The position numbers and the translations under genes were made by a program. 64,000 bases of DNA from positions 1,536,501-1,600,500 of the forward strand of contig NZ_CP045798.1 of the NCBI RefSeq assembly GCF_000746025.2, written 5' to 3'. The notes beneath the pieces were generated by a model. The model had not been told where the DNA came from. It was given only the letters and a program-made list of their open reading frames with translations, and searched no databases. Numbering within the stretch: the first letter of the stretch is position 1; each line of letters starts with the position of its first letter. This DNA comes from Thermanaerosceptrum fracticalcis. Its GTDB lineage: Bacteria; Bacillota; Peptococcia; DRI-13. Shown one piece after another: positions 11,073 to 28,924 of the stretch.

Positions 11073-12887
11073 ATGTATCGAAAAACATCGTTACGGGTTC
11101 GCCTGATTATCATCCTGCTCTTAACCGTAACTGTGCCTATCATCGTTACGGGCTACTTTATGATGAACAGAGCGAAAACAGCTTTACTCAACGAAAAACA
11201 AGCTAAACTCTTCGGTTATGCCCGCCTGCTGGATATTTATCTGGAAGGCACCTATGACGATATCCTGGCCAAAGAAGGGGCCCTTACCGCTGATCGAGCC
11301 ACCAAAATAAATATCCTTAACCAGGCCCTCCAGTCTTATACAGATCAGGTGGCTGCCGCTCACCCCGGATTGGGTATTGGTTATTATTCTAAAGATTTAG
11401 ACGCCATCCTAACCTATGGTCCCAGTACAGAGTTTGGCTATACCGTGGGCCAGTCTATCTTTCCCGGCCACCAGGGCTATACCGTCATGGCTACGGGAAA
11501 AGAAATGGTCCAGTTAGGGAAACTGGTGCGGGGTCCTATTATGAACTGCATGGTTCCTATTATTCGTAACGGGAAAATTATCGGATATATCTGGGCCAAT
11601 GAGTTATTAGAGGACATAGAAGGACAAATCGCCGGTATGGAGAGTAAAGTCTACGATACCATTATTATTGGGTTATTCTGCGCCTTGATCACGGCCTATT
11701 TTATGACCGGGAATATCGCCCGGGACGTAGAAGTCATCAAAAACGGGCTTAAGATCCTTCACAAAAATATGTCCCATCGCCTTCCTCCCTTACGGGGGGA
11801 AATGGGGGAAATAGCGGGTGCTATCAATGAAATGGCTGACGCCATGACCAATATGAAGCATCACACAGAAAACATCGTAGCCAGTACACCCAACGGCCTC
11901 TTTACCTTAAATGAGCAGGGCCACATTACCATTTACAACCTGCCCTGTGAACGGATTACCGGTATCCCTGCCAAAGACGCCATAGATAACCATTATCGTC
12001 ACGTATTTCAGCCCTGGTCGGAGATAATGAAAATCCTCGACCAATCCTTCGAGGGTGAATTATATCAAAACAAAGAATTGACTATAAGCGTAAATAAACA
12101 ACAAGTCCCTATCCTTTTCACTACGACACCCCTTCTAAACAATAAGAATGAACAGATGGGGATTTTGGTCATCATGCGTGATCTTACCGATACCAAAAAA
12201 TTAGAAGAACAAGTACGCCGTGCTGACCGCCTGGCCGTCGTCGGAGAACTGGCAGCCGGTGTAGCCCATGAAGTCCGCAACCCCCTGACCGCCATTACCG
12301 GTTATCTCCAGCTTTTGGCCGTAGATTATCCCGAAGACGATCCCCGCCAGGAATTTACCCGTATTATCAGCAAAGAAATAGACCGCTTAAATCACCTGAT
12401 TGACCAGCTTCTCTATTTTTCACGTCCCTTGCCTCCTCAGTTTACGCTGGTGGATATTCATAAGATAATACAAGAAACACTGCTTCTAATCAATAACCTG
12501 GCGATACGGAAAAAAGTCACTATTCATACGGCTTTCGCCTCCAACCTGCCTTTGGTAAAAGTTGACCCTGTCCAGATCAAACAGGTATTACTCAATATCA
12601 TTCTCAATGGCATTCAAGCCATAGAAAGTACGGGGACCCTGACCCTGTGCACCGGTTTTGATTCCTCCAGCCAGCATATTTGTATAGAAATTATCGATAC
12701 AGGCACAGGCATCCCGCCGGAAAATATTCCCCGCCTTTTTGACCCTTTTTACACCACGAAAGAAAAAGGAACGGGTTTGGGCCTGGCTGTGGCCGATAAA
12801 ATCATGGAAGTCCACCAGGGGTATATAGAAGTTACCAGCGAGTTAGGCACTGGCACTTGTTTTGCCCTTTACTTACCAGTCAAATAG
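11073..12887 (+). CDS. atoS: Sensor histidine kinase of the AtoS type
   Basis: Membrane kinase that would sense acetoacetate or short-chain acids and phosphorylate AtoC. I chose ATG 11073 (604 aa, AAGGTG upstream). A GTG at 10986 in the same frame lies inside the candidate operator and would add an unlikely N-terminus. Order: TM1 (residues 8-30), extracytoplasmic Cache-like domain (35-190), TM2 (about 200-220), HAMP-like region, PAS (270-385), HisKA with GVAHEVRNPLTAI, HATPase with DTGTGI and GTGLGLAVADK. It is followed 13 bp later by atoC. The match to AtoS rests on architecture and neighbours rather than a search. Confidence 0.85.
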   Translation: MYRKTSLRVRLIIILLLTVTVPIIVTGYFMMNRAKTALLNEKQAKLFGYARLLDIYLEGTYDDILAKEGALTADRATKINILNQALQSYTDQVAAAHPGLGIGYYSKDLDAILTYGPSTEFGYTVGQSIFPGHQGYTVMATGKEMVQLGKLVRGPIMNCMVPIIRNGKIIGYIWANELLEDIEGQIAGMESKVYDTIIIGLFCALITAYFMTGNIARDVEVIKNGLKILHKNMSHRLPPLRGEMGEIAGAINEMADAMTNMKHHTENIVASTPNGLFTLNEQGHITIYNLPCERITGIPAKDAIDNHYRHVFQPWSEIMKILDQSFEGELYQNKELTISVNKQQVPILFTTTPLLNNKNEQMGILVIMRDLTDTKKLEEQVRRADRLAVVGELAAGVAHEVRNPLTAITGYLQLLAVDYPEDDPRQEFTRIISKEIDRLNHLIDQLLYFSRPLPPQFTLVDIHKIIQETLLLINNLAIRKKVTIHTAFASNLPLVKVDPVQIKQVLLNIILNGIQAIESTGTLTLCTGFDSSSQHICIEIIDTGTGIPPENIPRLFDPFYTTKEKGTGLGLAVADKIMEVHQGYIEVTSELGTGTCFALYLPVK

Positions 12888-12900
12888 GAGGTTAAGAAAC

Positions 12901-14283
12901 ATGACTAGTACCACTTATAATATTTTAGTTGCGGACGATGAACCCAGCGTCCAGTCCCTGCTGGAAAACATCCTGTTAAAAGAAGGTTATAACGTAATCC
13001 TTGCCGGCAATGGACAGGAGGCCGTGAACCGCTTTCGTCAATATTCCCCGGAACTGATTCTCCTAGATGTCCGTATGCCAGTTATGGATGGCCTGGAGGC
13101 TTTTAAAATCATTCGCCAGGAAAACCAGGAAGTTCTGATTATCATGATAACAGCTTACGGTACCATTGAAACAGCAGTCCAGGCCATGAAAATGGGGGCC
13201 TTTGATTATCTTGTAAAACCTTTTAACCTGGAAGAACTTAAGGTTGTCATCAAAAAAGCCCTGGAAATGTACAGTATGAGTTCCGAGCTACGAACCCTGC
13301 GCCGGGAATTCGCCGATAAATACAATCTGCAAAACATAGTCTTTAAAAGCAAAGCCATGCAGGAAGTGCTAAACCTGGCTGACATTGTGAGTAAGAGCGA
13401 TGCCACGGTCCTTTTGCGGGGTGAAAGCGGTACAGGAAAAGACCTGTTGGCCCGTTACATTCATTCCCGCAGTGCCAGGGCCCAGGGCCCCTTTATCAAG
13501 ATCCACTGCGGCGCCTTGCCCGAAACCCTGGTAGAGAGTGAACTTTTTGGCTATGAAAGAGGCGCCTTTACCGGTGCCACCACACGGAAGCCGGGAAAAT
13601 TTGAACTGGCCCGGGGTGGAACCCTCTTTCTCGATGAAATTGGTGAAATCAGCCCCAGTATCCAGGTAAAACTTTTACATGCCCTGCAATATAAGGAATT
13701 TGAACGCCTGGGTGGCACGGAAACCTTAAAAACAGACGCCCGGCTCATCGCCGCCACCAATAAAAACCTGGAAGAAGCCATGTCGAAAAAAGAGTTCAGG
13801 GAGGACCTTTTTTACCGCCTCAACGTTATTCCGATCTATCTTCCGCCCTTACGGGAACGCAAGGAAGACCTGCCTCATCTTGTGGACTATTTCGTCGGGC
13901 ATTTTTGCCAAAAACTAAAGCGCCCCCCTTTAACAGTGAGCCAGGAAACCATCACCCTTTTAACGGCTTACGACTGGCCGGGGAATATCAGGGAACTGGA
14001 AAACACTATAGAAAGGGCCGTTATATTAAGCACAGGTCCCCAAATCACCCCTCAGGTCCTGCCGCGCAGCATCAACAAATATAAAGACAGCCAGGCTCAA
14101 TTTTTTATTACGCCCACTGAACGCCCTCTTAGAGATGTCATGGCCGATATTGAGAAACAGATTATTAAAAAAGTCCTTCAAGAAACAGGGGGAAACCGTT
14201 CCAAAGCTGCCGAGAAACTGGGGATCAGCCGGCGAGCCCTCCATTACAAACTGGTAGAATACGGTTTCCAAAGCGAAGAATAA
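12901..14283 (+). CDS. atoC: Sigma-54 response regulator AtoC
   Basis: A 460-aa NtrC-class regulator. I used ATG 12901 because AGGAGG lies nine bases upstream; an earlier in-frame ATG overlaps the end of atoS. The receiver has ADDEPS, phospho-Asp in LILLDVRMPVMDG and Lys in LVKPFN. AAA+ has GESGTGKDLLA, GAFTGA and LFLDEIGEI. The C-terminal Fis helix-turn-helix reads GNRSKAAEKLGISRRALHYK. It is expected to activate the atoEDA promoter immediately downstream, where a sigma-54 sequence and a dyad are visible. Confidence 0.92.
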   Translation: MTSTTYNILVADDEPSVQSLLENILLKEGYNVILAGNGQEAVNRFRQYSPELILLDVRMPVMDGLEAFKIIRQENQEVLIIMITAYGTIETAVQAMKMGAFDYLVKPFNLEELKVVIKKALEMYSMSSELRTLRREFADKYNLQNIVFKSKAMQEVLNLADIVSKSDATVLLRGESGTGKDLLARYIHSRSARAQGPFIKIHCGALPETLVESELFGYERGAFTGATTRKPGKFELARGGTLFLDEIGEISPSIQVKLLHALQYKEFERLGGTETLKTDARLIAATNKNLEEAMSKKEFREDLFYRLNVIPIYLPPLRERKEDLPHLVDYFVGHFCQKLKRPPLTVSQETITLLTAYDWPGNIRELENTIERAVILSTGPQITPQVLPRSINKYKDSQAQFFITPTERPLRDVMADIEKQIIKKVLQETGGNRSKAAEKLGISRRALHYKLVEYGFQSEE

Positions 14284-16536: not shown

Positions 16537-17193
16537 ATGGCAAATCCGCGGGAAATAATTGCTAAAAGAATTGCCCGTTTTTTCAAAGTCGGTGATGTTG
16601 TAAATTTAGGTATTGGCCTGCCTACGGCTGTAGCCAATTATATACCTGAAGGAGTCAATATCTTTCTCCATTCGGAGAATGGCTTTATCGGTCTTGGCCC
16701 TACACCCCCAGAAGGTCAAGAACAAAAAGACGTCGTTAACGCCGGAGGTCAGCCCGTAACCATTGTGCCAGGAGGAGCCTGTTTTGACAGCGCTATGTCC
16801 TTCGCCATTATCCGCGGCGGCCATCTGGCTGCCACTGTCTTAGGGGCCCTGGAAGTGGATGAAAAAGGAAACCTGGCTAACTGGATGATCCCCGGTAAAA
16901 TGGTACCCGGCATGGGCGGTGCCATGGACCTGGTAGCCGGTGCCCGTAAAGTCATTATTGCTATGGAACATACCACGAAGGAAGGAGCCCCCAAAATCCT
17001 CAAAGAATGTACTTTGCCCCTCACTGCCAGAGGTGAGGTAGATTACATTGTGACAGAATTAGGTTTAATGGAAGTAACCGAAGAAGGAATCGTCCTCAGG
17101 GAATTGGCTCCTGGAGTTACTGTGGAAGAAATTCAAGCCAAAACCCAGGCTACATTAATTATTCCCGACACAGTTCAGACAATGGAGTTTTAA
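16537..17193 (+). CDS. atoA: Acetoacetate/butyrate CoA-transferase, beta subunit
   Basis: Subunit B of the same enzyme, 218 aa. The active-site glutamate lies in the LHSENGFIGLGP segment, and GLPTAVANYIP precedes it, as in the family. AAAGGAGTG precedes ATG 16537. The last 33 bp of the gene (17161-17193) are the start of a 554-bp direct repeat found again at 28007. Only this copy of atoA is complete. Confidence 0.95.
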   Translation: MANPREIIAKRIARFFKVGDVVNLGIGLPTAVANYIPEGVNIFLHSENGFIGLGPTPPEGQEQKDVVNAGGQPVTIVPGGACFDSAMSFAIIRGGHLAATVLGALEVDEKGNLANWMIPGKMVPGMGGAMDLVAGARKVIIAMEHTTKEGAPKILKECTLPLTARGEVDYIVTELGLMEVTEEGIVLRELAPGVTVEEIQAKTQATLIIPDTVQTMEF

Positions 17194-17202
17194 TAAAAAA
17201 TT

Positions 17203-17225
17203 GGCAGGGAAATCTAACCCCTGCC
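17203..17225. terminator. Bidirectional terminator between atoA and trpA (left copy)
   Basis: GGCAGGG and CCCTGCC form a perfect 7-bp stem, with A/T tracts on both sides (AATAAAAAATT upstream, ATTATATTTT downstream). It would serve atoA on the plus strand and trpA on the minus strand. The identical copy is at 28049-28071. Confidence 0.7.
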
Positions 17226-17247
17226 GATTATATTTTCATAACAGTAT

Positions 17248-17714
17248 TTAGTTCATGGCAAAATGAGTATTTTCCACAGCTTTTTTTAGACTTGCGAAAT
17301 AAGCACAAACTTTATTAATTACCCTCTCAGGTTCATCCTTAACCAGAGGTAGATTTTCTTCAATCCGTTCAATCAGGGAACTGCCTACAATCACGCCATC
17401 GGCTATTGCGGCAGCCTTACCTGCCGTTTCGGGGCTTTTTATACCAAAACCCACTGCCAGAGGCAGATCAGTGTGAGAGCGTATTTGAGCCAAAAAAGCT
17501 TCTAAACCTGAAGCAATATTTTCTCTGCTGCCTGTTACTCCCGTCACCGAAACACAATAAATAAAACCGCGAGCCAGAGCCGCTATTTTTTCCATGCGTT
17601 CGGCAGTACTGGTAGGAGCTGCTAAAAAAATCAAGTCTATTTCAGCCGGATCCGTAATTTGCTTCAGAATCCTGGCTTCTTCCGGGGGAAGGTCAGGTAC
17701 AATGAGACCATCTA
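17248..17714 (-). pseudogene. trpA: Truncated trpA (C-terminal part only)
   Basis: The frame encodes the C-terminal 155 residues of tryptophan synthase alpha, nearly identical to the intact gene at 28094-28924. Upstream of 17714 the match stops abruptly and the sequence becomes a group II intron reverse transcriptase frame. No start with a ribosome site is present, so it is not expected to be functional. Two coding differences from the intact copy (ERVINK for ERVINE, KKAVEN for KKAMEN) show slight drift since duplication. Confidence 0.93.
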
Positions 17715-18044
17715 CTTCTTACCTTTGTTTGCTTTCACTCTTTCCCAGGCCAGTTTTAGGTTTGTGGGATGATAAACCTTGTCAATGAGTGAGTGAACTT
17801 TCTTGACTGTACCGTTTTTGGCAGAGGAATATTTCCAACTTTTCTTTAGAATCTTCATGGATTTCTTGATTTTACTTTCCGTATTCAAGTTGAAAGTTTC
17901 GGACGCGTTAACGGAAATACTTTCTTTAAGCTCTTTAACCTGCCAACGTCGTATTTCTCGTAAGGTCACCTGCATCTTACTCATACTTCGTTTCAGTCTT
18001 GTTTTCTCAGTCTTTCTGCCCACCATAAAGTTTTTTGGGTACAA
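17712..18044 (-). pseudogene. N-terminal fragment of a group II intron reverse transcriptase
   Basis: The 110-codon frame ends with KVHSLIDKVYHPTNLKLAWE followed by RVKANKG, the standard N-terminus of group II intron-encoded reverse transcriptases, where palm motifs would normally follow. It is cut at 17715, exactly where the 554-bp repeat begins, and terminates on a TAG at the junction. A terminator-like hairpin lies upstream (18056-18074). The truncation means no RT activity. The fragment marks the left edge of the inserted segment. Confidence 0.75.
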
Positions 18045-18074: not shown

Positions 18075-18181
18075 CCTTTTATCGTACATGCGTTATTTTG
18101 TGCTCGTACCTATGGATCCCCTTGTAGTACATTAATATATCGTATCCCAGGATGAAACCCTTACCCTCCACACGAGTAAAA

Positions 18182-18997
18182 TCACGTTGCCTGATTTTTC
18201 ATATGCCTTAATAAAATCATGAAAGAAATTAGACAGGCGATACTAAGAAAAATCCATAACGGTACCAGTGCTGCGGTTCCCTCAATACCAGCATTAGCCT
18301 GCAATAAAGAACCGGCAGTTAAAACCAGTGTATAAATAAAACCCTTGACATTGAACATCACTGCCAATACATATCCCCAAGGGCGGCGCTTCCACAACCA
18401 GATCGCTCCCAACACAAGACCCGACACTACAAGTGATAAATCCAGAGTAGCCACCAGTTTGAAACCATCCATATCTAAGCCACTCTGCGGAAGCTGTCCC
18501 GTTACAACAAAATTTAGCCATTGACCGATCCACGCTATCCCTAGTAAAATAGCCCATAACATCATGTAACTACTAACCCATTTGACAGGCGTCCTCGCCT
18601 GGAATTTCTGGCTGATTGAGTTGACATCAATGTTCGCCAGTCCAAAGATAAGTGCAAAAATCGACAACGTGAACAATGCAACATAAATCAAGAAAAATAG
18701 GTTTAAAGCAGCACCGAAAAGGTAAAAGGCGTAATTGTATAGCGTGTAATCTAGCATCCCTAGCCAGACCAGTTGTGCTCGCTGCGAACCGCGTATCGAC
18801 ATAATCAACGTTATAATCAACAGCGGGAAAGCGACAAAGAGTGTGACCAAGTCATTTCCATACCATCCTATCAGAATAAAGGTGGAGTTGTCCCGGTACA
18901 AATTGCCGATGAAAAGCCCACCTGCGGATGCAACCAAAGTTAAGACTGCGATAAAGATCGACAGAACATAAGCAGGTTTTAGTTTAGTATCCAACAT
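18182..18997 (-). CDS. Hypothetical polytopic membrane protein
   Basis: A 271-aa integral membrane protein with about seven hydrophobic helices and no soluble domain. The start MLDTKLKPAYVLS is supported by GGGAGGAG four bases upstream. I do not recognise the family. It has a charged loop (YRDNSTF...YGND) between the first helices and a KRRPWGY loop before the penultimate pair. It lies inside the 10.3-kb inserted segment, upstream of the intron fragment on the same strand and downstream of the flavodoxin fusion gene. No function is proposed. Confidence 0.75.
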   Translation of the reverse strand: MLDTKLKPAYVLSIFIAVLTLVASAGGLFIGNLYRDNSTFILIGWYGNDLVTLFVAFPLLIITLIMSIRGSQRAQLVWLGMLDYTLYNYAFYLFGAALNLFFLIYVALFTLSIFALIFGLANIDVNSISQKFQARTPVKWVSSYMMLWAILLGIAWIGQWLNFVVTGQLPQSGLDMDGFKLVATLDLSLVVSGLVLGAIWLWKRRPWGYVLAVMFNVKGFIYTLVLTAGSLLQANAGIEGTAALVPLWIFLSIACLISFMILLRHMKNQAT

Positions 18998-19180
18998 TTT
19001 CTCCTCCCTCTATCTACAAGCATATTGTCTTGCGCACTCCGCAAAACATACTCATAACCCCCTCGGACTCACAAGCGACATTCAGCCTGGGTAGCAACAA
19101 ATTAAAGAGAGACCAGTTTAAGCTGTTTCAGGTTTCTTGCACATAATACATCGGAGCCAATCTGAAATATGCAACGATTT

Positions 19181-20935
19181 TTATCTATGCTTGTTCCCAC
19201 CAGCTGCGATATATGCCGGGTACCAGTCGGGGAACCAGGCGGTGAATACGCCGGCCAGGAGCAGAGGTAGGTACCGCAAAACCATCCAGAGAATTTTGTA
19301 TTCCGGTATGAGATTCATCATCAATACCATTACAGCCATGAAGAGGTAGGCCTCGCCCCATACCGCTGTGATGATGGCATTGGTCCGCAAAAACATGGGA
19401 TTATCAGCGAGACTGGCCGGATAGTTCCACCTGGAATATTCTGCGGTAAGTGGTACTTCTTTGGCCAACGAGGCCAGCCATGTGGCACCCAGGACCAGGT
19501 TTCCGCTAAAATCTCCCGCTGCAGGTGACAGCGGGTAACCGGCTAGAGCAAAAACGCCGGCAACCAGGAAGTAAACGGCCGATATGCTATCCATCCAGGT
19601 GGGGCTGTTATAATATTTCCTGTAGCCCCATATGAGCAATGAACCAAGGGCAGGCACACCCCATTTTACAGCAGGATTCAATTCCATACCTGTGGCGATC
19701 CAGTTGAAAATCCATGGCAGGAAGGCTACCGTGAGCCACATCATGCCCGGTATGGGAAGCGGCCCCGCCGGGCATGCTGGTGCTTCGTCTTTGGAATCGG
19801 TACCTGAAAATAAATCCTTCATCTTAAGCATTATGCCAAAATCTCCTGTCACTTTATAAAGCCCCTGCATTAAGGCTCCGGCTCCGTCCAGTTTCCCCCG
19901 GGCTATGCTAAGCCACACATCCGCCGGCGACGTGATCACCGTTGTGGCATTTTCCGCTTTTCCCTCATGGACCGAACAACGGCCTTCTTGAATAACCATA
20001 TAAAATTCCCCACCGCCTTCCCCGGTGAGGTTTATCTGCAGCACAGCCTTCATATCTCCGGCGGCCCTGGGGTTAAAGACCATCACCATACCCATGACGG
20101 CTTCTCGGCAGTCGCGGGGAAGCATATTAGGCTTAGAAATTTGTTCTATTCGTTTTTCGCCAGCCTCATTCTTTCCGGAATCCCCAGTAAAATGCTCTTC
20201 TGATGTAAAATCGGATTTATTTCCCTCCACCCCCTCCGGAGTAATCTTGCTGTCCCAGAAAGCATTGGCCATATTGAGGAATGATTCCAGGGGCACCAAT
20301 TCCTTTGCTAAAATACTTTCAGTCTCGGAAGATAAGTGACCCATTTCTACTATCTCTCTCCCGGCCCTGCGCAGTGCATCATAGTACCACTTAAAACCAT
20401 CACCGCCAAACCGCAGCATTTCCCCGCCAGAACACAGGATGCTGGCCAAGAGGCTGCCCGGCCGATCCTTAGTTAGCTGACACATGTGCTCTTCCAGGGC
20501 TTTAAAATGGACTCTGTCCGGGAAACCGCAGTTGGCGATCAATACCATATCCATCCTATGTTCTTCCCGTCCCGGATGGGAAAAATGGTCGCCTTTCTTG
20601 ATTATGTGAGGGTCAGCTAGGGGCAGTGTGCGCTCCAACAGGCGCTTCAATCGGGCTGTCATGCCAAAATGATATAGGGGAGTAGCCAGCACTAAAATAT
20701 CGGCCTTTTTGATTTGTTCCAGCACTCCCTTCATGTCATCCTGTAAGATGCAGCGGCCCGGGGTCTTTGTCCAGCACATAAAACAGCCCTGGCAATCACG
20801 GATGTCCAAATCCACCACATATATGACATCCGTGGTGGCTCCTGCATCCCGGGCACCTGCTAAAAAAGGCTGTAGCATCCTGTCAGTATTGCTATCCCTT
20901 CCTCGGGGGCTGCCGTTTATGGCCAGGATATACAT
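19181..20935 (-). CDS. Flavodoxin-fold FMN reductase / SCP2 / membrane-domain fusion
   Basis: A 584-aa three-part protein. Residues 1-220 form an NAD(P)H-dependent FMN reductase-like flavodoxin domain: MYILAINGSPRGRDSNT is the phosphate-binding loop, followed by CQGCFMCW and ATPLYHFGMTARLKR. About 270-380 resemble an SCP2 sterol/lipid-carrier domain (MGMVMVFNPRAAGDMKAVLQ, then ADVWLSIARGKLDGAGALMQ). Residues 400-584 contain about five hydrophobic segments. I start at ATG 20935 (GGGAGG upstream) rather than seven codons earlier. Flavodoxin plus SCP2 suggests redox chemistry on a hydrophobic substrate at the membrane. That is inference, and I know of no named enzyme with this layout. Confidence 0.8.
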   Translation of the reverse strand: MYILAINGSPRGRDSNTDRMLQPFLAGARDAGATTDVIYVVDLDIRDCQGCFMCWTKTPGRCILQDDMKGVLEQIKKADILVLATPLYHFGMTARLKRLLERTLPLADPHIIKKGDHFSHPGREEHRMDMVLIANCGFPDRVHFKALEEHMCQLTKDRPGSLLASILCSGGEMLRFGGDGFKWYYDALRRAGREIVEMGHLSSETESILAKELVPLESFLNMANAFWDSKITPEGVEGNKSDFTSEEHFTGDSGKNEAGEKRIEQISKPNMLPRDCREAVMGMVMVFNPRAAGDMKAVLQINLTGEGGGEFYMVIQEGRCSVHEGKAENATTVITSPADVWLSIARGKLDGAGALMQGLYKVTGDFGIMLKMKDLFSGTDSKDEAPACPAGPLPIPGMMWLTVAFLPWIFNWIATGMELNPAVKWGVPALGSLLIWGYRKYYNSPTWMDSISAVYFLVAGVFALAGYPLSPAAGDFSGNLVLGATWLASLAKEVPLTAEYSRWNYPASLADNPMFLRTNAIITAVWGEAYLFMAVMVLMMNLIPEYKILWMVLRYLPLLLAGVFTAWFPDWYPAYIAAGGNKHR

Positions 20936-21000
20936 TTTATTACCTCCCTGGTTCAAAATTTATGTTCTACAAGCAAAGCATTTATTTAATTCACTTAATT

Positions 21001-27130: not shown

Positions 27131-27716
27131 AATTCAAATCTTCCTTCCATAATTGGCAATTTCCCATTGAGACAGCAGTAGCCCCATGTCTTATAGCTTC
27201 TCTCATCTGATCTTTTGTCCTTATCAACCCTCCGGCGATAATAGGAAGATCAATTTCTTTTCTGAATTCAGCAATATAATCCGTAACTAAAGCAGGCATA
27301 AATTCCACTGCATCAGGTTGTGTCTCTTGGATTGATTGAAGTCCAGATTTGACTGCATCACTATCGACCAGGAATAAACGTTGAATCGTCAACAACCCTT
27401 GTTTTTTAGCCTGGATAATTAAGTTATTACGGGTACTCACGATACCGACAGGTTTTACATAATGGGCAATAAAATCAACACCATCTTTGTCATGGCTGAT
27501 CCCTCCAATTCTTTCAATGTGTAAGAATACCGGGAAATTAGACCGTTTAAAGAGGTCCACATAACGCTTAATCACAGCAATGTTACCGATCGAAAGCACG
27601 ACTGCACTTAGCTCAGCTTCTAAAGCCTTTTCTAGGTATTTGGGTTCTTTAATGGCAGCAATTTTCTTGATGCTAGCCAGTCTCTGATAAAATTGTGCTT
27701 TGTTGATGGACATCAT
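27123..27716 (-). CDS. glpP: Glycerol-3-phosphate-responsive antiterminator GlpP
   Basis: A 197-aa TIM-barrel-like RNA-binding antiterminator that, with glycerol-3-phosphate, lets polymerase pass leader terminators (known from Bacillus glpD and glpFK). Family features are LHIERIGGISHDKDGVDFI and VEFMPALVTDYIAEFRKEI, plus PIIAGGLIRTKDQMREA. GGGGAG lies just before tandem ATGs at 27716/27713. It is the first gene of the operon, directly behind a terminator-like leader at 27752-27824, so autogenous control is likely. Confidence 0.93.
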   Translation of the reverse strand: MMSINKAQFYQRLASIKKIAAIKEPKYLEKALEAELSAVVLSIGNIAVIKRYVDLFKRSNFPVFLHIERIGGISHDKDGVDFIAHYVKPVGIVSTRNNLIIQAKKQGLLTIQRLFLVDSDAVKSGLQSIQETQPDAVEFMPALVTDYIAEFRKEIDLPIIAGGLIRTKDQMREAIRHGATAVSMGNCQLWKEDLNYE

Positions 27717-27751
27717 CTCCCCAATGTCACCTTGTTCTAGACTCTGAGCTA

Positions 27752-27824
27752 TAAAAAAGAAACCTTAACTAAATCCCAAAAACTTGCCCGTTTTCCGTTT
27801 CTGGAACTTTGTTTAAGGTTTCTC
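27752..27824 (-). promoter_or_regulatory. Leader attenuator, probable GlpP target
   Basis: On the minus strand GAAACCTTAA (27813-27822) pairs with TTAAGGTTTC (27759-27768), followed by TTTTTT, giving a terminator with an unusually long loop of about 45 bases. It lies 35 bp before glpP. GlpP acts on such leader hairpins in Bacillus, so uptake genes would be expressed only when glycerol-3-phosphate is present. Confidence 0.6.
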
Positions 27825-28006
27825 CTTAACTCCACCCACAACATATCTACTTTTGCCTTAAATCATAATACACAATTATAAAGCTATAATTAAAATATCT
27901 TTAAATTTATGTAGAAATTCGGTTTACAGTTGGTTTTAAGTCACTAGCGTTACATAATGGTATTGACGCAAAAGTCAAATTTTAAACAAGGAAGAAATCA
28001 AGAAAA

Positions 28007-28560
28007 ATTCCCGACACAGTTCAGACAATGGAGTTTTAATAAAAAATTGGCAGGGAAATCTAACCCCTGCCGATTATATTTTCATAACAGTATTTAGTTC
28101 ATGGCAAAATGAGTATTTTCCATAGCTTTTTTTAGACTTGCGAAATAAGCACAAACTTCATTAATTACCCTCTCAGGTTCATCCTTAACCAGAGGTAGAT
28201 TTTCTTCAATCCGTTCAATCAGGGAACTGCCTACAATCACGCCATCGGCTATTGCGGCAGCCTTACCTGCCGTTTCGGGGCTTTTTATACCAAAACCCAC
28301 TGCCAGAGGCAGATCAGTGTGAGAGCGTATTTGAGCCAAAAAAGCTTCTAAACCTGAAGCAATATTTTCTCTGCTGCCTGTTACTCCCGTCACCGAAACA
28401 CAATAAATAAAACCGCGAGCCAGAGCCGCTATTTTTTCCATGCGTTCGGCAGTACTGGTAGGAGCTGCTAAAAAAATCAAGTCTATTTCAGCCGGATCCG
28501 TAATTTGCTTCAGAATCCTGGCTTCTTCCGGGGGAAGGTCAGGTACAATGAGACCATCTA
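28007..28560. repeat. Right copy of the 554-bp direct repeat
   Basis: Its first 33 bp (28007-28039) duplicate the last codons of atoA without the rest of that gene. It continues with the shared terminator (28049-28071) and the 3' 467 bp of trpA, which here runs on into the intact gene. The sequence before 28007 has no similarity to atoA. Confidence 0.93.
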
Positions 28561-28924
28561 TGCCCGCTTCTTGAGCCCTGGAAACATATTTTTCCAGGCC
28601 AAAACGATAAATAGGATTGTAATAAGTCATTAAAATCAGGGGTGTTTCCACCCTTGACCGCAAACGGGCTGCCAGTTGGAATATTTTTTCTAATGTGATG
28701 CCCCCTGCCAGTGCCCGCTGGGAAGCTTTTTGAATGGTGGGGCCGTCTGCTACCGGGTCTGAATAGGGGACCCCTAATTCCACCAGGTCAGCCCCGGCTT
28801 CTACTAGTTTTAAGACTAATTGTTCTGTAAACTCCAAACTCGGGTCACCGCAGCTGACATAAGGGATTAAGGCTTTCTGCCCCTTTAGCCTTAAATTAGT
28901 AAAGGTTTCGGCAATTCTACTCAC
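28094..28924 (-). CDS. trpA: Tryptophan synthase alpha subunit
   Basis: Cleaves indole-3-glycerol phosphate to indole and glyceraldehyde-3-phosphate. It has 276 aa. [21 protein letters not shown] carries the catalytic Glu/Asp region, and [11 protein letters not shown] and [13 protein letters not shown] form the phosphate site. GTG 28924, with GGGAGG upstream, overlaps the trpB end by 8 bp. It is the last gene of the trp operon; its 3' half is duplicated at 17248-17714. Confidence 0.97.

Follow-up and report, generated by a model that had tools for sequence, protein, structure and literature searches.

Layout of the gene and its surroundings

The window analysed here is a stretch of 64,000 nucleotides from Thermanaerosceptrum fracticalcis. 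It carries one intact minus-strand gene at positions 19181-20935 (584 codons and a stop), and these coordinates, proposed by an earlier sequence-only reading, proved exact. The gene encodes a flavodoxin-fold head that resembles iron-sulfur flavoproteins (Isf), an SCP2 domain, and a six-helix membrane module in a single chain. The head comprises residues 1-226 (20258-20935, minus strand) and is defined by Pfam, a four-cysteine motif, and the structural model. The SCP2 domain follows at residues ~273-383, also placed at ~276-382 (19787-20119, minus strand), and is supported by Pfam and by fold matches. The membrane module occupies residues 397-577 (19205-19747, minus strand) and is delimited by the model, regional conservation, and its occurrence in CrtISO-like proteins. 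The gene probably starts with the ATG at 20935, which has a GGGAGG ribosome-binding site 7 bases 5' of it; translation could also begin at a TTG at 20956, though this is less likely.

Pfam assigns FMN_red to residues 1-103 (E 5.8e-19; 68.6 bits against a cut-off of 24) and SCP2 to residues 295-376 (E 3.6e-13; 50.2 bits against 21.3), and finds no family for the last 190 residues. An AlphaFold model of the whole protein, made with 78 aligned rows (mean pLDDT 84, pTM 0.66), contains a flavodoxin fold, a disordered linker at residues 235-270, an SCP2 region, and membrane helices. The three domains recognised by eye in the earlier reading are thus real, two of them by Pfam and all of them, membrane helices included, by predicted structure. 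On the single 3.8-Mb contig that makes up the genome, the full-length gene occurs once; a second match is confined to residues 3-107, with 30% identity.

The gene had also been described as part of an integrated segment, and its surroundings bear this out. It is flanked on both sides by a 554-base direct repeat, whose copies at 17161-17714 and 28007-28560 are identical at 552 of 554 positions. The repeat holds the 3' part of trpA, the intact copy of which lies at 28094-28924. The two copies bracket ~10.3 kb that carries the fusion gene, a membrane protein (18182-18997), a GDPD gene, and a sugar-type ABC transporter. The neighbouring membrane protein does not match the membrane-module profile, and neither a PadR gene nor a CrtISO-like gene adjoins this copy of the fusion. 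The stretch 18132-19255 is 95.2% identical in DNA, over 1126 columns, to a region in a genome of another family (G250, locus L145, 5020-6143). This stretch spans the neighbouring membrane protein, whose protein sequence is 93% identical, and reaches 75 bases into the 3' end of the fusion gene. Those 75 bases are all that remains of the fusion gene in that G250 region, beside the same membrane protein, and G250 differs beyond them. The GC content of the fusion gene is 0.49-0.51 vs 0.40-0.43 in its direct flanks, though windows at 12-17 kb reach 0.45-0.50. Because repeats flank the gene, G250-like DNA adjoins it, and its GC content exceeds that of its direct flanks, it is likely that this copy was acquired by recent horizontal transfer.

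Other details of the region were noted in passing. The repeat also holds the tail of a gene at 16537-17193, by eye a CoA-transferase subunit, which in a genome of the same genus (G001) matches another contig. In G001 (L216), the G3P-antiterminator and trpA regions that correspond to 27615-28600 of the window are adjacent, in 99% identical blocks with 126 bases fewer between them. A short ORF at 17712-18044 ends at the repeat junction and by eye resembles the beginning of a reverse transcriptase of the group II intron kind, with no Pfam match at E 0.01.

The flavodoxin-type head and the SCP2 domain

The head contains an FMN phosphate loop, NGSPRGRDSN, and a compact cysteine motif, C48-X2-C51-X2-C54-X7-C62 (CX2CX2CX7C). 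All 78 aligned rows contain cysteines 48, 51, 54, 62, 136, and 168, and 77 of them match the FMN-loop pattern. Because the search seeds for the 80 loci behind this alignment included the first three of these cysteines, the conservation of those three is biased in this set. Fusions found via the membrane module alone were examined for this reason; among their eight readable heads the motif is present in all and the loop pattern in seven (missed in L150). Known Isf proteins are soluble and are not known to have SCP2 or membrane parts. The Isf family is described as having an FMN-binding, flavodoxin-type domain with the compact motif CX2CX2CX5-7C (PMC3164229), and the head shares both the fold with its phosphate loop and the motif. 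By its motif the head would therefore be of the iron-sulfur-flavoprotein type, and the presence of an Fe-S cluster is not certain.

The uncertainty about the cluster comes from the nearest solved relative by sequence, 7d38, which aligns with residues 2-108 (E 7.9e-10, or 9.3e-12 with the family profile). This structure is the flavone reductase FLR, a flavin ene-reductase from gut bacteria which was assayed without oxygen and converts apigenin to naringenin (PMC7862272). FLR has four cysteines at the same place, with a wider spacing before the last in the alignment, and the main text of its paper does not mention "iron-sulfur" or a cluster (PMC7862272). FLR and the head share a fold (VIA Z 16.4, rmsd 3.8, 170 residues aligned). 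The 310-residue FLR chain, however, is matched in the head only, and the homology is too distant for its substrate to be transferred. A profile of the family's SCP2-membrane part did not find FLR, but this profile hardly recovers even genuine SCP2 chains, so the test is a weak one.

By structure, the VIA ranking of the head is led by an archaeal NAD(P)H:quinone oxidoreductase (4r81; Z 17.7, rmsd 2.9, 184 aligned), followed closely by human NQO1 (16.8), with which 7d38 is level, and by azoreductases (~16). Named reductase families fit poorly: SsuE and MsuE FMN reductases score 21 and 20 bits against NCBIfam cut-offs of 164.05 and 212.5, and FMN-dependent NADH-azoreductase (NF002370) 17.6 bits against 143. 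The sequence-only reading had called the head an FMN reductase of flavodoxin type. The flavodoxin fold stands, but the head does not belong with true FMN reductases of the SsuE kind; its nearest solved sequence relative is a flavone ene-reductase, and its cysteine motif is that of iron-sulfur flavoproteins.

For the SCP2 domain, a second model was made of the SCP2 and membrane parts (pLDDT 90, pTM 0.83). Its SCP2 part matches solved structures, with 3cnu in Foldseek (E 9.5e-6) and 8af3 as the best SCP2 protein in VIA-align (Z 13.9, rmsd 2.6, 108 aligned). An SCP2 fold, the absence of which would have undone the earlier description, is therefore present. A sequence search with the window protein alone finds 3cnu at E 3e-6, while the family profile of the SCP2-membrane part reaches only E 0.66 with the same chain. 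Among the family members scanned, 61 of 64 match the SCP2 Pfam family (E 0.01). Among known proteins, the alkylsulfatases SdsA1 and Pisa1 carry a C-terminal SCP2-like domain of the same fold (Pisa1 4axh; Z 15.3, rmsd 1.8, 105 aligned), likewise built into an enzyme with an alkyl substrate. UbiJ, an SCP2 protein of ubiquinone synthesis, also shares the fold (VIA Z 9.4). In contrast to the fusion, these comparators are hydrolases or accessory proteins, not flavoenzymes.

Distribution, regulator, and a second use of the membrane module

A scan of genome contigs with a two-row profile confirmed 206 relatives; a scan seeded by the window protein alone gave none, its patterns being too specific. The best 80 of the 206 were kept, and these align with almost the whole query. 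Judged by record title, Lachnospiraceae and other Clostridia predominate among them, alongside Erysipelotrichia, Coriobacteriia, two Chloroflexota, and a single archaeal MAG, and many bear animal-gut titles; many relatives are metagenome assemblies, so taxon names may err. Among plasmid records there are 18 partial matches, the best covering residues 3-245, and none reaches 80% coverage. Within the window's own order, the SCP2-membrane part occurs in 2 of 25 genomes, the other being G007 of the Peptococcaceae, whose contig is L112. The only genome of the same genus, which is 80% complete, has no SCP2-membrane part.

Three of the 80 loci were dropped before alignment (L051 for an odd C-terminus, L103 and L104 for stops), leaving 77 rows, or 78 with the window protein. 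A further alignment (A5) holds 63 of the 77 loci and the window protein, and the family tree was built from 21 of the 77, seven regions, and the window protein. In this tree the window protein groups with G250 (67% identity) and G274 (64%), which are genomes of another family. The group adjoins one with Chloroflexota proteins, while the other clade, which is mostly gut, stands apart (100/100). Some copies of the fusion are broken: L103 has several stops, L104 has one, and L153 is in two frames.

At 51 of the 80 loci, the fusion is immediately preceded on its own strand by a gene from a single similarity cluster, identified as PadR from the one member scanned (L046). Thirty-two of these genes overlap the fusion (26 by exactly 4 bases), 10 lie within 4 bases of it, and 9 are further off. 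In L036 and L037, a PadR gene, recognised by similarity, lies one gene further upstream, and L055 has no gene upstream of the fusion. In 13 genomes the number of PadR-like genes ranges from 1 to 11 per genome, so chance adjacency would be rare.

The membrane module has predicted helices at residues 397-414, 421-442, 447-464, 471-491, 513-542, and 544-577, and conserved stretches PLTAxYS, RTNxIxT, and FTAWFxxWYP. Conservation in the membrane part is highest in the loop at 492-512 (0.75), followed by helix 5 (0.72), helix 1 (0.70), and helix 6 (0.69). With the N-terminus in the cytosol, this loop and the end of helix 6 would be cytosolic as well. The membrane part has 10 lysines and arginines, of which 7 by manual count are on or close to the side of the loop and the helix 6 end. 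The VIA lists for the models are filled by head and SCP2 matches; for the membrane part they hold only ArnT rows with Z 7.5-7.7, which are too weak to use.

A stand-alone membrane protein, L139 (1438-2091), links the module to small membrane proteins of the IspA/DUF3159 type. It matches IspA (E 4.2e-5) and DUF3159 (E 7.4e-5) without reaching either cut-off, and aligns with the module over 161 columns (Prob 93.5). An IspA-family member, on the other hand, reaches only Prob 69 over 60 columns against the module, and none of 64 fusion members matches IspA (PF04279, also YciB) or DUF3159 at E 0.01. A scan of 199 genomes of the phylum found one IspA member, too few for a family profile.

The module is not confined to the fusion. 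A module profile of 22 rows matches in 26 of 398 genomes sampled from the phylum; one row is CrtISO-like (G031), which matches by construction, though it is also found by the window protein alone. The flavodoxin-SCP2-membrane fusion is present in ten of the 26 genomes, and in one (G179, L153) it is split into two frames. In 11 of the 20 regions fetched, the module forms the N-terminus of a flavoenzyme of ~700 residues of the CrtISO/phytoene-desaturase type; G358 is a twelfth case by end sequence only. G250 has both architectures on different contigs, and five of the 26 genomes hold only fragments or small stand-alone proteins. The NCBIfam carotenoid isomerase model matches the two CrtISO-like proteins scanned (E 3.1e-47 and 8.8e-58), both below the family cut-off. 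The CrtISO/CrtI-type FAD oxidoreductases thus resemble the fusion in that some carry the same module and a PadR of the same lineage. They differ in having an unrelated flavoenzyme head and an N-terminal module, and in scoring below the NCBIfam cut-offs of named carotenoid enzymes. The CrtISO family acts on polyene C=C bonds.

The regulator recurs with the second architecture. Among the regions fetched from the phylum sample, only 2 of 8 with the fusion and 4 of 11 with a CrtISO-like gene have PadR immediately upstream of it. In a tree of 38 PadRs, the 21 operon PadRs (17 from fusions, 4 from CrtISO-like loci) fall on one side of a 99/97 branch, vs 17 other PadRs from the same genomes. The 17 from fusions are 13 of the 51 clustered PadRs, taken by even steps, together with those of L036, L037, L150, and L154. 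The 17 others include many short or long-branched sequences, and the tool warned of long branches meeting, so part of the split may reflect PadR subfamilies.

Each of the two Chloroflexota loci has PadR, a CrtISO-like gene that lacks the module, and the fusion side by side in this order. Among the 80 loci, 42 came from genomes that were searched for the module: 41 of these 42 have one module and the remaining one has a second, weaker module. The two architectures therefore rarely co-occur, and the idea that a module-bearing CrtISO-like protein is an obligate partner of the fusion is weakened. The window's own genome gave no CrtISO-like match in a search run without a positive control. In L161, a 176-aa ORF at 12603-13133 near the module-CrtISO gene matches the CrtISO-like protein P0002 (E 2e-35) without a Pfam match, and is perhaps a gene fragment.

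Proposed function and its alternatives

We consider it somewhat probable that the fusion acts as an iron-sulfur flavoprotein reductase tethered to the membrane, with a hydrophobic molecule as its substrate and, in its relatives, under PadR control. Reduction of such a molecule at the membrane, as suggested in the sequence-only reading, appears to be the best reading of the three parts together. In the proposed mechanism, the head, the SCP2 domain, and the conserved loop 492-512 would face the cytosol, and NAD(P)H or reduced ferredoxin would load the Fe-S/FMN head. The SCP2 domain would take a hydrophobic substrate from the membrane module and present it at the inner membrane face, where the head would reduce it. 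In the relatives, a PadR repressor would switch the gene on when the substrate is present, which may serve detoxification or electron disposal. Since a CrtISO-like FAD enzyme also occurs with this module and with PadRs of this lineage, the module appears to be a common platform for substrates of one lipid-like class. Points against the proposed function are the uncertain cluster, the missing PadR beside the window copy, the minority of fetched phylum-sample regions in which PadR adjoins the gene, the lack of a CrtISO-like match in the window's own genome, and the quinone reductase at the top of the VIA ranking.

The bond reduced is somewhat more likely to be a C=C bond than a quinone, because the nearest solved sequence relative is an ene-reductase and the CrtISO-type family acts on C=C bonds. 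Fold similarity alone would favour quinone reduction in these models. The head would then reduce membrane or toxic quinones in the manner of NQO or AzoR, with the SCP2 domain and the module handling the isoprenoid tail. This is in keeping with the quinone oxidoreductase at the top of the VIA ranking, with the best Foldseek match of the head (PaAzoR1 with ubiquinone-1, E 2.7e-8), and with UbiJ among the SCP2 fold matches. It is nevertheless rather unlikely, as the head is nearer to FLR in sequence and the CrtISO-like enzyme on the same module and PadR lineage points to C=C chemistry. Moreover, NQO and AzoR are not known to need the Isf-type cysteines.

An Fe-S/FMN head could also act as an electron donor that feeds a second flavoenzyme in the membrane, for example the CrtISO-like protein, as the adjacent PadR, CrtISO-like, and fusion genes of both Chloroflexota loci might suggest. 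The single module in 41 of 42 fusion genomes speaks against such a role and makes it decidedly improbable; a module-bearing CrtISO-like protein is usually absent, the search having covered the module-bearing form only. Virtually no weight falls on an artefact in which a sequencing or frame error joined two or three adjacent genes, an outcome named earlier as one that would overturn the fusion. The 80 kept loci match approximately the full query with the domains in the same order (77 translated without internal stops), and eight further module-found regions repeat that order, seven of them in one frame. Nothing in the window hints at such an error; the one relative in two frames (G179) is what error or decay would give.

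The reading of the fusion as a reductase of a hydrophobic molecule may be extended, quite doubtfully, to an anaerobic lipid-reduction system. Here one PadR lineage and one six-helix platform would be combined with two unrelated flavoenzyme heads, saturating double bonds of membrane-inserted lipids. In gut Lachnospiraceae such a system could include a step of unsaturated-fatty-acid biohydrogenation, a process that has been argued to be detoxification (PMC2836310). The biohydrogenation reductase of Butyrivibrio was reported as not found in KEGG, COG, or Pfam though its sequence had been reported, and it is called membrane-associated, not integral (PMC4478896), which counts against the fatty-acid reading. 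By record title, there is no Butyrivibrio among the best 80 of the 206 relatives.

Each of the parts is known. What seems to be new is how they are combined, in that a membrane module has been swapped between two flavoenzymes that are unrelated but have related regulators. The description of the fusion as unusual holds in one respect: among the matches listed in open-licence PMC, no paper on the fusion or the shared module was found, an absence that is weak evidence. It does not hold for its occurrence, given 206 confirmed relatives, and the family is widespread but apparently unstudied. These relatives, many of them gut-derived by title, appear to carry electrons to a greasy molecule. The shared module and the linked regulator offer a handle on the substrate, since the compound that releases PadR should be the compound that is reduced. 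If that substrate were an unsaturated fatty acid, a prenyl lipid, a sterol, or a dietary compound, the family would explain a lipid transformation in anaerobic communities through a testable gene.
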